A stretch of 64,000 nucleotides of DNA, from positions 1 through 64,000 of the forward strand of contig JAADJD010000012.1 in NCBI GenBank assembly GCA_013150955.1, read 5' to 3'. Within the stretch, counting starts at the first letter, position 1. Each line of letters begins with the position of its first letter. Shown one piece after another: positions 1,747 through 5,953 of this stretch. The notes beneath the pieces are model-generated. The model did no database searches. It was given only the letters and a program-made list of their open reading frames with translations, and had not been told where the DNA came from. The position numbers and the translations under genes were made by a program. Origin of the DNA: Calditrichota bacterium (lineage in GTDB: Bacteria; Calditrichota; Calditrichia; RBG-13-44-9; J042).

Positions 1747-1785
1747 AAAAACCCCGCACTCCCGGTAGGTTACCGGTAGTGCGGG
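1747..1785 (-). terminator. Rho-independent terminator for the beta-propeller gene
   Basis: On the minus strand, a GC-rich stem of about 14 bp (arms 1753-1767 and 1771-1785, cccgcact...agtgcggg) is followed by a T run (A run 1747-1751 on plus). It lies 33-71 bases past the stop codon at 1818 and ends the B12 transcription unit. Confidence 0.8.
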
Positions 1786-1817
1786 ATGAATTCCCCTCGA
1801 ACCCCTCCACCGCATGC

Positions 1818-3089
1818 TCAGCGCAGCAGATGCATTTTTCGCACCTGGCTCTGTCCATCAATACGGAGGCGGTAGAAATAAATGCCCGAAGGCACCGGAT
1901 TCAATTGCGCATCGCGACCATCCCAGACCACCTGGTGGTTTCCGGCCGGCAATACACCGTTCACCAATACCCGAACGGTTTGCCCCAGCAGGTTTAACAC
2001 TTCCAGATAAACCGGTGCCCGGGTCGGGGTGACAAATGCAATGGTGGTTTGCGGATTGAATGGATTGGGATAATTCTGATATAGAACAAATTGTTCTGGC
2101 AGTTGACGGTCGTGTTTCTCTGCAATAGCGGTAAAAGCGGGATCACTCACGGCCAGCGAAATCGGCCCGTCCCCGACTTCATAAGCGGACAGGGGCGTAA
2201 AATCTGCGGCAAACACAAACACCGAATCTTTATTGAAATCGGCAATATAAATATTCGACTGGGCGTCAAACCCGATGGCTGGCCCCCCGGGAAGCGTCTG
2301 GTTCATCAGGGAGTCGCCCACCAGATCGTATATAAAAACGCCATATCCATAGGTACTGATGAATGCCCTGTTGTTGTTCAAGAATACATTTGTTACCGCG
2401 GTGCCCATATCAATGGTCTTTACCACGGTGTCCGCCTGCCCATTGATGATTTCCAACTTTCCGGTGATATCGGCATAATTTCCGGTACAAACAACATAAA
2501 TGAATCCCTGGACATCGGCATCAATCTGCTGAGGGTTGATACTCACGGATATGGTGTGGATGACCGTCCGCTGCGCCACGTCAATAACAGATACCGTTCC
2601 TGGATCGTATCCCTGTCCATTATAACCGGAATTGGCGACGTACAATTTGCCCGCTGCATACTTTACCCCCTGCGGGCCAGTACCCACGGTTATTCTGGAC
2701 AGGATGGCGCCATTTCGCACATTCACCAGTGCCACTTCATTGGTTAATAACAAGGAAACCGCCGCCACGGAATCGTTCACAAAATCCATGGCGTAGGGAT
2801 TGGTGCCACTTCCCAGATCGATACGCTGCAGCGTGGTAAAATCACTCAAACGGATCACCTGAATTTCATTATCACCGGAATTCACAATGTATCCCCTGTC
2901 GCCCTTCAGGACGATCTGATTGGCATACAATCCGGCTGTTGCCGCATCCTTAACCACCGTTCCATTGTCCAGATCAATCCAGGACACATTTTTCCCCAGC
3001 GTGTTTACCACATACACACTTCGGGATTGGGCCGGGGCCAATGCATAAAACATCAACATCCATAAACCGATCGTAAATAAGCGCTTCAT
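1818..3089 (-). CDS. YVTN beta-propeller surface protein with T9SS tail, candidate BtuG-like cobalamin-capture protein
   Basis: The product has about 423 residues. The ATG at 3089 is chosen because AGGAGG lies 6 bases upstream; the in-frame ATG at 3119 overlaps the preceding gene and lacks a ribosome site. A signal peptide (MKRLFTIGLWMLMFYALAPA) is followed by YVTN-type blades (SVYVVNTLGKNVSWIDL, KLYVANSGYNG, TVSVIDVAQRTVIHTI) filling about residues 25-330. A T9SS sorting domain follows (YQNYPNPFNPQTTI ... WDGRDAQLNPVPSGIYFYRL ... RKMHLLR). The gene lies 13 bases after a TonB receptor controlled by a cobalamin riboswitch and before a terminator, so it belongs to the B12 regulon. In Bacteroides, BtuG is a surface beta-propeller lipoprotein that binds B12 and docks on BtuB. 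No lipobox cysteine is visible here; the sorting domain would do the anchoring. Cobalamin binding is inferred from context and fold only. Confidence 0.75.
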   Translation of the reverse strand: MKRLFTIGLWMLMFYALAPAQSRSVYVVNTLGKNVSWIDLDNGTVVKDAATAGLYANQIVLKGDRGYIVNSGDNEIQVIRLSDFTTLQRIDLGSGTNPYAMDFVNDSVAAVSLLLTNEVALVNVRNGAILSRITVGTGPQGVKYAAGKLYVANSGYNGQGYDPGTVSVIDVAQRTVIHTISVSINPQQIDADVQGFIYVVCTGNYADITGKLEIINGQADTVVKTIDMGTAVTNVFLNNNRAFISTYGYGVFIYDLVGDSLMNQTLPGGPAIGFDAQSNIYIADFNKDSVFVFAADFTPLSAYEVGDGPISLAVSDPAFTAIAEKHDRQLPEQFVLYQNYPNPFNPQTTIAFVTPTRAPVYLEVLNLLGQTVRVLVNGVLPAGNHQVVWDGRDAQLNPVPSGIYFYRLRIDGQSQVRKMHLLR

Positions 3090-3102
3090 AAGCTTCCTCC
3101 TG

Positions 3103-5319
3103 TTATGGGTTAAAAACATTCCAGTATACTTTTAATTGGGCATAAACCGCCCGACGGGGCATGGGGAATCCGAAAATCAGCTGATAATCTTCTCCCAGCA
3201 GGTTTTTCCCCATTACCGAAAAGTCCAGACGAAAACGGGATATCGTTCGGCTAACCCCCAGCTGAACGTCCCAGATTCGGTAGGGAGCCAGCTGGGTACC
3301 GCGGGAATTGGCGTGGACCGTTTCCCGGCGATCCACGTAGCGAAATAAAATTAAACCGGAAAACATGCCCAGACGCAGTTGTAGATTGGCCTGCAGCGTG
3401 TGGGGTGGAATGAAAATGATGCGTTTTCCATAGATATTGGGTTCTCGGGTCAGGTTTTTTGCCTGCACCCAGCTGTAGGCAAGCTGAACGGTTATCTTGC
3501 GCTGAAACAGCGGCTGCTTAATGAGCACATCCACCCCTTCTTTGGAGGCGCTGCGTAAATTACGGGGCTCCCATATGCCATTCACCCCCCGGTGCCAGTA
3601 AATCAAATCCTGAATGGTAGAACGATAGTAGGTTAGAGACGCAAACGTCGTCCCTTGCTGGAATCGGATGCCAACATCCCACCCGGTTTTTCGTTCGGGA
3701 TTTAAATCGGGATTGCCCCGCGCGCGAGCATCCCCCTTCCAGAAAAGGCTGTTAAAATCCGGGTAGCGAATGGCCTTTTGCCATCCCAGAGAAAAGGTCA
3801 GATTAGGGAATCTGGCCGGAACGGCTACAAAGGCCAGATAGGGGAAGAATTCCGGTGATCGATCAAAATAGCGCTCCAGCCGTCCTGCATGGCGAATCTG
3901 GAACCATTTCAACAAAGGAATCTTCTCCACAGAGAATTGAACATGTTCGTATGCTGCCGTAGCCTGGCGGGTTTTTTTCCCCAGACTGTAACGTGGATAC
4001 AGGATGTTCTCATGATCCAGTTGCTCCTGCAAAAAATACAGCCCGACGCGCGTTTCCAGCATTTTCCCCGGTACCCAGCGATGCCAGAGCTCCGCTTCGC
4101 GGGTGGTATTTCGCTGCCGGGTATGATACCGGGTAAATGGAGAAGGGTCTTTCTCATTATTAAAAAGCTGATCCAGTTGGTGCGTACTCAGTCGCGCTTC
4201 GACATACGCCTGACTGGAATACATCCAACGGCCCTGCAACTGAAAGGTCAACCAGTCCTCCGCCGCGTGGGCATTAAAATGTTTCAACTCGTTGAAATAG
4301 GCCGAGGGGAGTCCCCGTCTAAACCGTTGCCACTGACCAAAAAAATTCACCTGCAATTTCGAACCGGCATAGCTGATTTTGGAAAACAATCGATTTTGCC
4401 GAACCCAGGCATTTTCCCGAACATAGGTTTTGCCCCGATATCCATAGGGATAATTCTGTGCGGAATACAATTGCATATAATCCCCCAATAGGCTGAATCG
4501 CCGCAGGGGAATGCCCAGGCTGGCCTGTCCCTGCATGGTGCGAAAACTGCCTCCCCCCGTCCTGGCACGTAGATAGGTGCGGGATACCGTTCGCCGGGTG
4601 TAAAAGGCGATGATGCCCCCCAGGGCCTGTCCCCCGTACAATGCCGTATTGCCCTGGGGAATGTATTCCACGCGCACCACCTGATCCAGGGGGATGACGG
4701 ACAGGTCGACCTCTCCCGTCTGGGGATGATTGAGGCGCTGCCCGTCCAGCAAAACCAGCACCTGATTGGCGCGGCTACCGTGGATGCGAATCTGCTGTCG
4801 CTGGCCCACGCCGCCGGAACTTTCCACCTGAATGCCCGGCAATTGATTCAACAGGGTGGCAATGCCCATTTCCCGGTAAAGGCGAATCTCTTCTTCGGAC
4901 AAGACCAGCGTTCCCGGTGTTGGGAGCCCTTCTGCCGGCAATGCCGTGGCCTCTACCTGAATGGGTGCCAGGGTCAGGGGCGCTTCCTGCAAGCGGAAGG
5001 TGACCACGATGGGATGATCTTCGTAGACCACCACGCCCGAAATTTCCCGCTTGCGATATCCCAGGTAATTGGCCACCAGGGTGTATTCTCCTGGAGGAAT
5101 GTTTTCGAAATAGAAGTGCCCGCGGGAGTCAGTATAGCTCTGGAACCCGGTGCCAACAATTCCCACCCAGGCACCCTCCAGTCCCACACCGGTGCGCGCA
5201 TCCAGCACCATACCGGTGATGCGAATGTTATCCTGCCCCATTCCGCTTCCGAAAGAAAACAGCAGTATCAGCACATATTTCAGAAAGCGGTGTTTCATGA
5301 TTGTTCCATCTGGTTTCAT
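3103..5319 (-). CDS. btuB: TonB-dependent outer-membrane receptor, probable cobalamin transporter (BtuB-like)
   Basis: The protein has about 738 residues. The chosen ATG at 5319 has GGAG 8 bases upstream. A longer TTG start at 5367 would lie inside the terminator stem, so it is rejected; the signal peptide itself begins at MKHRFLKYVLILLF (ATG 5298). Domains in order: signal peptide; carboxypeptidase-regulatory-like domain (TGMVLDARTGVGLEGAWVGI, about residues 30-105); TonB plug (about 120-230, GIQVESSGGVGQRQQIRIHG, VLVLLDGQRLNHP, YGGQALGGIIAFYTRR); and a long beta-barrel to the C-terminus. It is the first gene after a cobalamin riboswitch and terminator, which is the main reason for the B12 assignment. 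The barrel alone would not distinguish B12 from another large ligand. TonB/ExbBD and BtuCDF are not in the window. Confidence 0.85.
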   Translation of the reverse strand: MKPDGTIMKHRFLKYVLILLFSFGSGMGQDNIRITGMVLDARTGVGLEGAWVGIVGTGFQSYTDSRGHFYFENIPPGEYTLVANYLGYRKREISGVVVYEDHPIVVTFRLQEAPLTLAPIQVEATALPAEGLPTPGTLVLSEEEIRLYREMGIATLLNQLPGIQVESSGGVGQRQQIRIHGSRANQVLVLLDGQRLNHPQTGEVDLSVIPLDQVVRVEYIPQGNTALYGGQALGGIIAFYTRRTVSRTYLRARTGGGSFRTMQGQASLGIPLRRFSLLGDYMQLYSAQNYPYGYRGKTYVRENAWVRQNRLFSKISYAGSKLQVNFFGQWQRFRRGLPSAYFNELKHFNAHAAEDWLTFQLQGRWMYSSQAYVEARLSTHQLDQLFNNEKDPSPFTRYHTRQRNTTREAELWHRWVPGKMLETRVGLYFLQEQLDHENILYPRYSLGKKTRQATAAYEHVQFSVEKIPLLKWFQIRHAGRLERYFDRSPEFFPYLAFVAVPARFPNLTFSLGWQKAIRYPDFNSLFWKGDARARGNPDLNPERKTGWDVGIRFQQGTTFASLTYYRSTIQDLIYWHRGVNGIWEPRNLRSASKEGVDVLIKQPLFQRKITVQLAYSWVQAKNLTREPNIYGKRIIFIPPHTLQANLQLRLGMFSGLILFRYVDRRETVHANSRGTQLAPYRIWDVQLGVSRTISRFRLDFSVMGKNLLGEDYQLIFGFPMPRRAVYAQLKVYWNVFNP

Positions 5320-5354
5320 ACGATTGACTCCAATGACCCTGTTTTTCTGGCAAT

Positions 5355-5391
5355 AAAAAAGCCCCAACCTTCACGGAAGAAAGATTGGGGC
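5355..5391 (-). terminator. Intrinsic terminator between cobalamin riboswitch and btuB-like gene
   Basis: On the minus strand the stem gccccaatctt / aaggttggggc (plus arms 5381-5391 and 5361-5371) has one mismatch and a 9-base loop and is followed by TTTTTT. It lies between the aptamer and the start codon, so regulation is probably by B12-dependent premature termination. Confidence 0.85.
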
Positions 5392-5489
5392 AAATGTTCA
5401 CTGAACGCGCAGGTTCCCATCGGGAACCCTCGTTTTCGAATCTTCGCCAAACCCAACCTTCCCGCGAAGGCTTATCGGGTTTGTTATAC

Positions 5490-5655
5490 CAGCCGGTCTC
5501 CTGACTTAGGGATCATCCTACTCGCTCGCCTTCCCATGGCGCTGAACGCCACAGTGGCTGTTGAGCTTTCGTCCCCCATCACAGTTGCGGGGCAGTGGCG
5601 GATTCTCACCGCGCTTCCCGACACTGGTATAAGGAACCGTCGATGTCAGAGACCC
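5490..5655 (-). promoter_or_regulatory. Cobalamin (B12) riboswitch
   Basis: Read on the minus strand, the segment shows the hallmark blocks of the cobalamin aptamer in order: gtcgggaagcgcggtgagaa, then tccgccactgccccgcaact, then gatgggggacgaaagctc, gccactg, ggcgttcagcgccatgggaa, and the B12 box taagtcaggagaccggct (plus 5491-5508). It precedes an intrinsic terminator and a TonB receptor. The 5' limit is approximate. Confidence 0.93.
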
Positions 5656-5667
5656 AGAAGCGCCTGC

Positions 5668-5696
5668 AATATACCCCACGGAAATAAAAAAATCAA
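5668..5696 (-). promoter_or_regulatory. Sigma-70-like promoter of the B12 unit
   Basis: On the minus strand TTGATT (plus 5691-5696) and TATATT (plus 5668-5673) are separated by 17 bases, a few bases upstream of the riboswitch. The spacing is ideal, but this is motif evidence only. Confidence 0.5.
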
Positions 5697-5716: not shown

Positions 5717-5881
5717 CCCAGATTAAGCAAAAGCCTACGAATGACACGAATTCACACCAATAAAACCAATAAAATACATTGGATTGTGTCTGGATGAAAA
5801 TGTGTTCCAGGGTTTAATCGCGTTTTTGTTGATTTTTCTCGAATTCATTCGCGTGATTCGTGGTTTAACGCATTATTTGGG
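5717..5881 (+). repeat. 165-bp palindromic MITE-like element, copy A, plus an extra right arm to about 5953
   Basis: The copy begins CCCAGATTAAGC and ends CATTATTTGGG, with the internal block ggatgaaaatgtgttcc. It is flanked by ATAAA on the left and TTTAT on the right. A second right arm (TTTATTCGCGATTTTG ... GAATTTGGG, 5882-5950) follows in tandem, probably a remnant of another copy. It lies between the receiver gene's 3' end and the B12 promoter. Confidence 0.85.
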
Positions 5882-5953
5882 TTTATTCGCGATTTTGTAA
5901 ATATTGTTTGAATTCATTCGCGTGATTCGCGGTCTGAAGCAGAATTTGGGATA

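Follow-up and report, generated by a model that had tools for sequence, protein, structure and literature searches.

The window analyzed here, 64,000 nucleotides of a Calditrichota bacterium (GenBank assembly GCA_013150955.1, contig JAADJD010000012.1, positions 1 to 64,000), carries on its minus strand a cobalamin riboswitch, the gene for a BtuB-like TonB-dependent receptor, and the gene for a propeller protein with a C-terminal sorting domain of the type IX secretion system (T9SS). The riboswitch aptamer (5643-5474, minus strand) matches the full RF00174 model with 110.4 bits in cmscan (E 8.5e-27; the gathering score is 31.5), and a genome scan identified it as the sole RF00174 match in the 4.07-Mb genome. 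The interval between the aptamer and btuB holds an intrinsic terminator (5391-5361, minus strand) with a 12-bp stem followed by TTTTTT (-17.5 kcal/mol); a hairpin with a T-run is found at the equivalent place in the same-genus locus L112 and also in L113, L114, L115, and L122. Upstream of the terminator lies GAAGGTTGGG, which repeats a portion of the terminator 3' arm. In a ViennaRNA fold of 5474-5376, this copy pairs with the terminator 5' arm (-38.5 kcal/mol), which marks the segment at 5392..5473 (minus strand) as a putative antiterminator, and the expression platform 3' of the aptamer would therefore offer an antiterminator/terminator choice of the typical kind. In the intergenic sequence upstream of the riboswitch, at 5738-5940, there are direct repeats of about 30 bases (gaattcattcgcgtgattcg.ggttt).

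The receptor gene occupies 5319-3103 (minus strand), its start being set at 5319 because of a GGAG upstream. Only 13 nucleotides separate its end from the ATG of the propeller gene (3089), and these contain AGGAGG, a strong Shine-Dalgarno sequence. As no terminator was found in the btuB-propeller interval, the two genes should share one transcript, which would end at an intrinsic terminator at about 1787-1747 (minus strand), a hairpin formed by CCCGCACT..AGTGCGGG and followed by TTTTT (-27.2 kcal/mol). A sequence-only reading of this stretch had described a promoter, a riboswitch, an intrinsic terminator, and two genes as one unit closed by a second terminator. All of these elements were recovered except the promoter, for which the candidate TTGATT-17-TATATT is one of 10 matches against 8.9 expected by chance.

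The receptor consists of a signal peptide, a CarboxypepD_reg domain, a plug, and a barrel. Its best curated family is NCBIfam TonB-B12 (TIGR01779; 1.1e-35), and since its 123 bits remain below the equivalog cut-off of 599.7 bits, we call it BtuB-like, as the earlier reading had done. BtuB is its best relative among solved structures, and a profile built from 15 receptor relatives reaches Bacteroides BtuB1-3 at 4e-77 to 3e-71 and E. coli BtuB at about 1e-58, followed by the colicin I receptor CirA (2e-47) and PqqU/YncD (about 2e-34). Judged by sequence, it is a TonB-dependent receptor closest to known BtuB proteins. We also considered Foldseek with the AlphaFold (AF2) model of the receptor (pLDDT 85) as a test of substrate. 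The fold is consistent with BtuB (TM by target of 0.85 to BtuB2, 8bmx), but this test did not discriminate, as PqqU was the top match and the fold alone is thus no proof of substrate.

The propeller gene (3089-1818, minus strand) encodes 423 amino acids. Its N terminus, MKRLFTIGLWMLMFYALAPAQ, ending in ..ALAPAQ, resembles a signal peptide (residues 1-21; 3027..3089) and, as had been proposed, has no lipobox cysteine, judged by eye and by alignment with lipobox homologs. Residues 22-316 (2142..3026) form a predicted seven-bladed propeller (AF2 pLDDT of about 95, and 90 for the whole protein), with 27 strands, a number consistent with seven blades. The claim of a Por-type sorting domain likewise held: at about residues 334-423 (1821..2090), both TIGR04183 (35.6 bits; cut-off, 23) and PF18962 (30.7 bits; cut-off, 27) exceed their curated cut-offs.

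The comparison with BtuG that the earlier reading had suggested as a check favored it. BtuG chains (8ptf/8ptd/8blw_B) are on top of the PDB sequence matches of the propeller, at about 1e-9, and BtuG entries hold ranks 2-17 in Foldseek (E 1e-17 to 4e-16), with superpositions at an rmsd of about 3 A and TM by target mostly between 0.76 and 0.81. Rank 1 is the archaeal YVTN protein 1l0q, which superposes at only 16 A rmsd. The next propeller family, hydrazine synthase beta (2.7e-12), trails by about four to five orders of magnitude in E value, and E. coli YncE is at 4e-11. Among reliable superpositions, the modeled fold is therefore closest to B12-bound BtuG structures. From the sequence alone, the window's clade appears about as close to generic YVTN repeats as to BtuG1: a profile of its nine members (A2) matches 1l0q at 9e-22, slightly better than BtuG1 at 1.5e-18, whereas a profile of all 35 sorting-domain propellers (A4) matches BtuG at 3e-55 versus E. 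coli YncE at 3e-14. DUF5074 (PF16819), a family that also covers lipobox homologs from the same phylum, has no match in the window protein but matches 15 of 26 homologs in A1 and 21 of the 35 sorting-domain propellers. In fold and ancestry, then, the protein is BtuG-like.

To compare the pockets, we took the BtuG2 residues from the structural literature (PMC10404256) and mapped them with a MAFFT alignment, at an identity of about 17%. Tyr239, Asn54, and Pro132 of BtuG2 are kept as Y205, N29, and P98, Tyr335 corresponds to F285, and Trp194 aligns with Tyr156. Two aromatics that narrow the BtuG2 pocket are not conserved (Trp272 is A231 and Tyr316 is P270), and the 54-64 loop, with which BtuG2 grips B12, has five residues fewer in the window protein according to the same alignment. 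This mapping suggests that the cobalamin pocket is partly conserved and that its upper-ligand side probably differs.

The genome is equipped for type IX secretion. It encodes SprA, PorV, and a PorU sortase (850 bits), has about 100 sorting-domain matches, and the propeller combines the features of T9SS type A cargo, namely, a signal peptide and a C-terminal domain above cut-off, with the machinery present in the same genome. A PorZ-like match was found below cut-off only, so that attachment to lipopolysaccharide is less certain than secretion. We had considered whether the T9SS occurs only in lineages with the sorted form, an idea that was rejected because SprA and PorV have matches in all 40 genomes searched from the phylum, including those with the lipobox type. 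Another protein with a T9SS domain, built of tandem VCBS/FG-GAP-like repeats, is encoded at 1-1551 of the window. Its reading frame is interrupted near 890-965 by a repeat unit that is short of seven bases (gatgtggatgggcgtctt versus gatgtggatgtgctctcggcgtctt), and open reading frames 2-964 and 961-1551 therefore appear to be the halves of a single gene, split either by an assembly slip or by a repeat-driven frameshift.

With respect to the vitamin itself, B12-binding domains are present in the genome, and no CbiC, whose presence would mark de novo corrin synthesis, was found in it. A single operon of the BtuFCD type, which includes a DUF71 gene, is located on another contig. At this locus (L267, 7482-10824; G000:C60), which has no cobalamin riboswitch, the BtuC/BtuD/BtuF-type operon overlaps the gene for a DUF71 ATP pyrophosphatase, a family with a predicted role in B12 salvage (PMC3541065).

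A propeller match was found in 31 of 40 genomes of the window's phylum. Our survey covered larger stretches around these matches, around five loci from other phyla, and around 80 propeller matches obtained by searching across the Bacteroidota; fragments and one generic YVTN protein were set aside from the counts. A separate scan of genome contigs with the full protein gave 80 loci that are mostly unrelated T9SS cargo, picked up through the YQNYPNPF motif of the sorting domain, and these served as entry points to other phyla only. The sorting domain is present in 35 propellers (the window's and 34 more) and absent from 79, of which 75 were scanned: TIGR04183 matches 35/35 of the former versus 0/75 of these lipobox homologs. 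No lipobox, in turn, is seen in any of the 35 sorting-domain proteins (the N termini of L119 and L180 are truncated), and those without the domain have a lipobox-type cysteine, in the unusual form ATC/STC in L212, L217, and L223. Lipobox and sorting domain are mutually exclusive, 35 versus 75.

A receptor is encoded directly upstream in 32 of the 35 sorting-domain loci, and the other three start at contig ends, which makes 32/32 where the sequence is intact. A cobalamin riboswitch lies upstream in all seven intact sorting-domain loci of the window's phylum, the window included, and in 23 of 24 in other phyla, the exception being a truncated contig. The order of riboswitch, btuB, propeller, and sorting domain, for which the earlier reading had proposed a search of other genomes, is thus found in 30/30 loci, the window's among them, whose upstream sequence is intact. 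Because the survey selected loci by propeller similarity only, their neighborhood is independent evidence. The arrangement is widespread across several phyla and not peculiar to the window: holders of the sorted form include Gracilimonas mengyeensis, one genome each of Ignavibacteriota and Neomarinimicrobiota, and, in truncated form, one KSB1 genome.

Several of these loci carry further genes. In the sorting-domain operons L113 and L122, the next gene encodes a BtuF-like protein, and in L113 an ABC ATPase comes after it; a BtuF-like gene also follows in the lipobox operon L129. In Gracilimonas (L178, 3330-7040), the gene for a B12-dependent ribonucleotide reductase (2040 bits) lies directly downstream of the riboswitch, btuB, and sorted propeller, and by sequence likeness the same enzyme is encoded downstream of such an operon at L197 (6789-10391), so that in both cases a user of the vitamin sits beside its importer. 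Two BtuB-like receptors stand in tandem ahead of a lipobox propeller at L121 (4869-8985), a BtuG-like lipoprotein at L255 (4152-6215) has an additional C-terminal region of about 315 amino acids, and two Acido-Lenti-1 RNA matches on opposite strands lie just downstream of the propeller gene at L198 (4242-4466).

We also mapped the type of anchor on a tree of 109 propeller domains, from which signal peptides and sorting domains had been left out. At least seven changes of anchor are needed, four of them forced by well-supported branches, with the exact count and direction not settled by this quick tree, in which some branches are long. The window's own clade (15 rows, 100% support) joins 12 sorted and 3 lipobox proteins, and anchors differ even between two genomes of one genus (G037 and G038). 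Horizontal transfer may account for some of this pattern. The close similarity of L120, from another family (f6), to L121, from the window's order, suggests horizontal transfer as well.

Considering these data, we propose that the operon serves vitamin B12 uptake under riboswitch control and that its propeller is probably a T9SS-sorted surface cobalamin catcher of the BtuG type paired with BtuB. Under cobalamin scarcity, the riboswitch would allow read-through of the attenuator and thus coexpression of btuB with the propeller gene. The subsequent steps, from export onward, are drawn from what is known of the respective protein families. The signal peptide would direct the propeller, without lipidation, into the periplasm, and the C-terminal domain would take it across the outer membrane by way of the type IX system; there, PorU would probably cut it and attach it to the surface (or release it). 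At the cell surface, it would dock on BtuB, capture corrinoid, and hand it over to the barrel for TonB-driven import, and a BtuFCD-type ABC transporter encoded elsewhere would then move it inward.

A variant of this explanation differs in the last step: the propeller may be exported by the T9SS and then released, acting as a soluble extracellular cobalamin binder or being held only by docking on BtuB. Some T9SS type A cargo is indeed released rather than attached, the weak PorZ-like match is in line with this, and the Bacteroides BtuB-BtuG complexes are stable (PMC10404256). However, PorU and PorV are parts used for attachment, and the one-to-one association with BtuB in operons points to a partner at the surface, so that we consider release possible without favoring it. 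A more general role, in which a YVTN/NHL surface protein (an adhesin or an S-layer-like protein) merely happens to lie downstream of btuB, is unlikely. Such repeats are common, and 1l0q is the top sequence match of profile A2; against this, the order with riboswitch and btuB is conserved in every intact sorting-domain locus across several phyla, BtuG structures crowd the upper Foldseek ranks at an rmsd of about 3 A, against 16 A for 1l0q, and L141, a generic YVTN protein with a C-terminal domain from the same phylum, scores far lower and has no adjoining receptor.

It is also conceivable, though improbable, that the C-terminal domain is a FlgD-like protein-binding Ig domain and not a secretion signal, which would leave the propeller in the periplasm. 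PF13860 (FlgD_ig) is above its cut-off on this domain, but so are TIGR04183 and PF18962, and the strict partition of TIGR04183 between the sorted and lipobox homologs, along with the many such domains and the SprA, PorV, and PorU of this genome, argues for secretion. Finally, the receptor-propeller pair could import another substrate, such as a siderophore or PQQ, and only be regulated by cobalamin. The Foldseek rank of PqqU for the barrel is in favor of this scenario, but the sequence profile prefers the Bacteroides BtuBs by far over PqqU/YncD, the genome's sole cobalamin riboswitch sits here, CbiC is absent, and operons of relatives include btuF or a B12-dependent ribonucleotide reductase, all of which makes it very improbable.

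The proposed T9SS-sorted cobalamin catcher can thus be set beside systems already described. Like BtuG1-3 and BtuB1-3 of Bacteroides thetaiotaomicron (PMC6143338, PMC10404256), it is a seven-bladed propeller with an adjoining btuB under riboswitch control, sharing with BtuG1-3 the BtuB partner, the fold (E of about 1e-17), part of the pocket, and, as predicted, a surface location. It differs from them in lacking a lipobox, and hence an N-terminal lipid anchor, in its C-terminal T9SS domain of about 90 amino acids, and in its occurrence outside the Bacteroidetes. BtuG proteins have been described as surface lipoproteins found exclusively in Bacteroidetes (PMC6143338), and as this lipoprotein signature is missing here, we regard the protein as a T9SS-sorted variant of the BtuG kind and not as BtuG itself. 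Within the window's phylum, lipobox propellers of the DUF5074 (PF16819) family (such as L123, L129, and L134) share the riboswitch-BtuB operon order but have a lipobox cysteine, no sorting domain, and a long 54-64-type loop. With T9SS type A cargo (TIGR04183), the protein shares a signal peptide, a YPNPFNP-type C-terminal domain, and the presence of SprA, PorV, and PorU, but this cargo is the partner of a TonB-dependent transporter for a vitamin. A search mostly outside subscription journals found no literature joining BtuG or cobalamin capture with the T9SS.

BtuG binds B12 with femtomolar affinity and forms a stable lid complex with BtuB that has been likened to a pedal bin, the N-terminal linker of BtuG possibly serving as the hinge. 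The recurrence in several phyla of a sorted version that lacks this linker suggests that the lid design can do without the hinge. We lean toward the view that cobalamin-catching lids come in two interchangeable forms of surface delivery in several phyla, the lipid-anchored BtuG and a T9SS-sorted form that, on lipopolysaccharide or released, would uncouple capture from a membrane hinge beside the barrel, and that the swap has been repeated, even within one genus. As natural pairs of relatives differ in their anchor, the role of the anchor is directly testable. Our findings would extend BtuG from lipoproteins exclusive to Bacteroidetes to a T9SS-sorted variant and would add uncultured environmental lineages to the organisms in which B12 capture is assisted.
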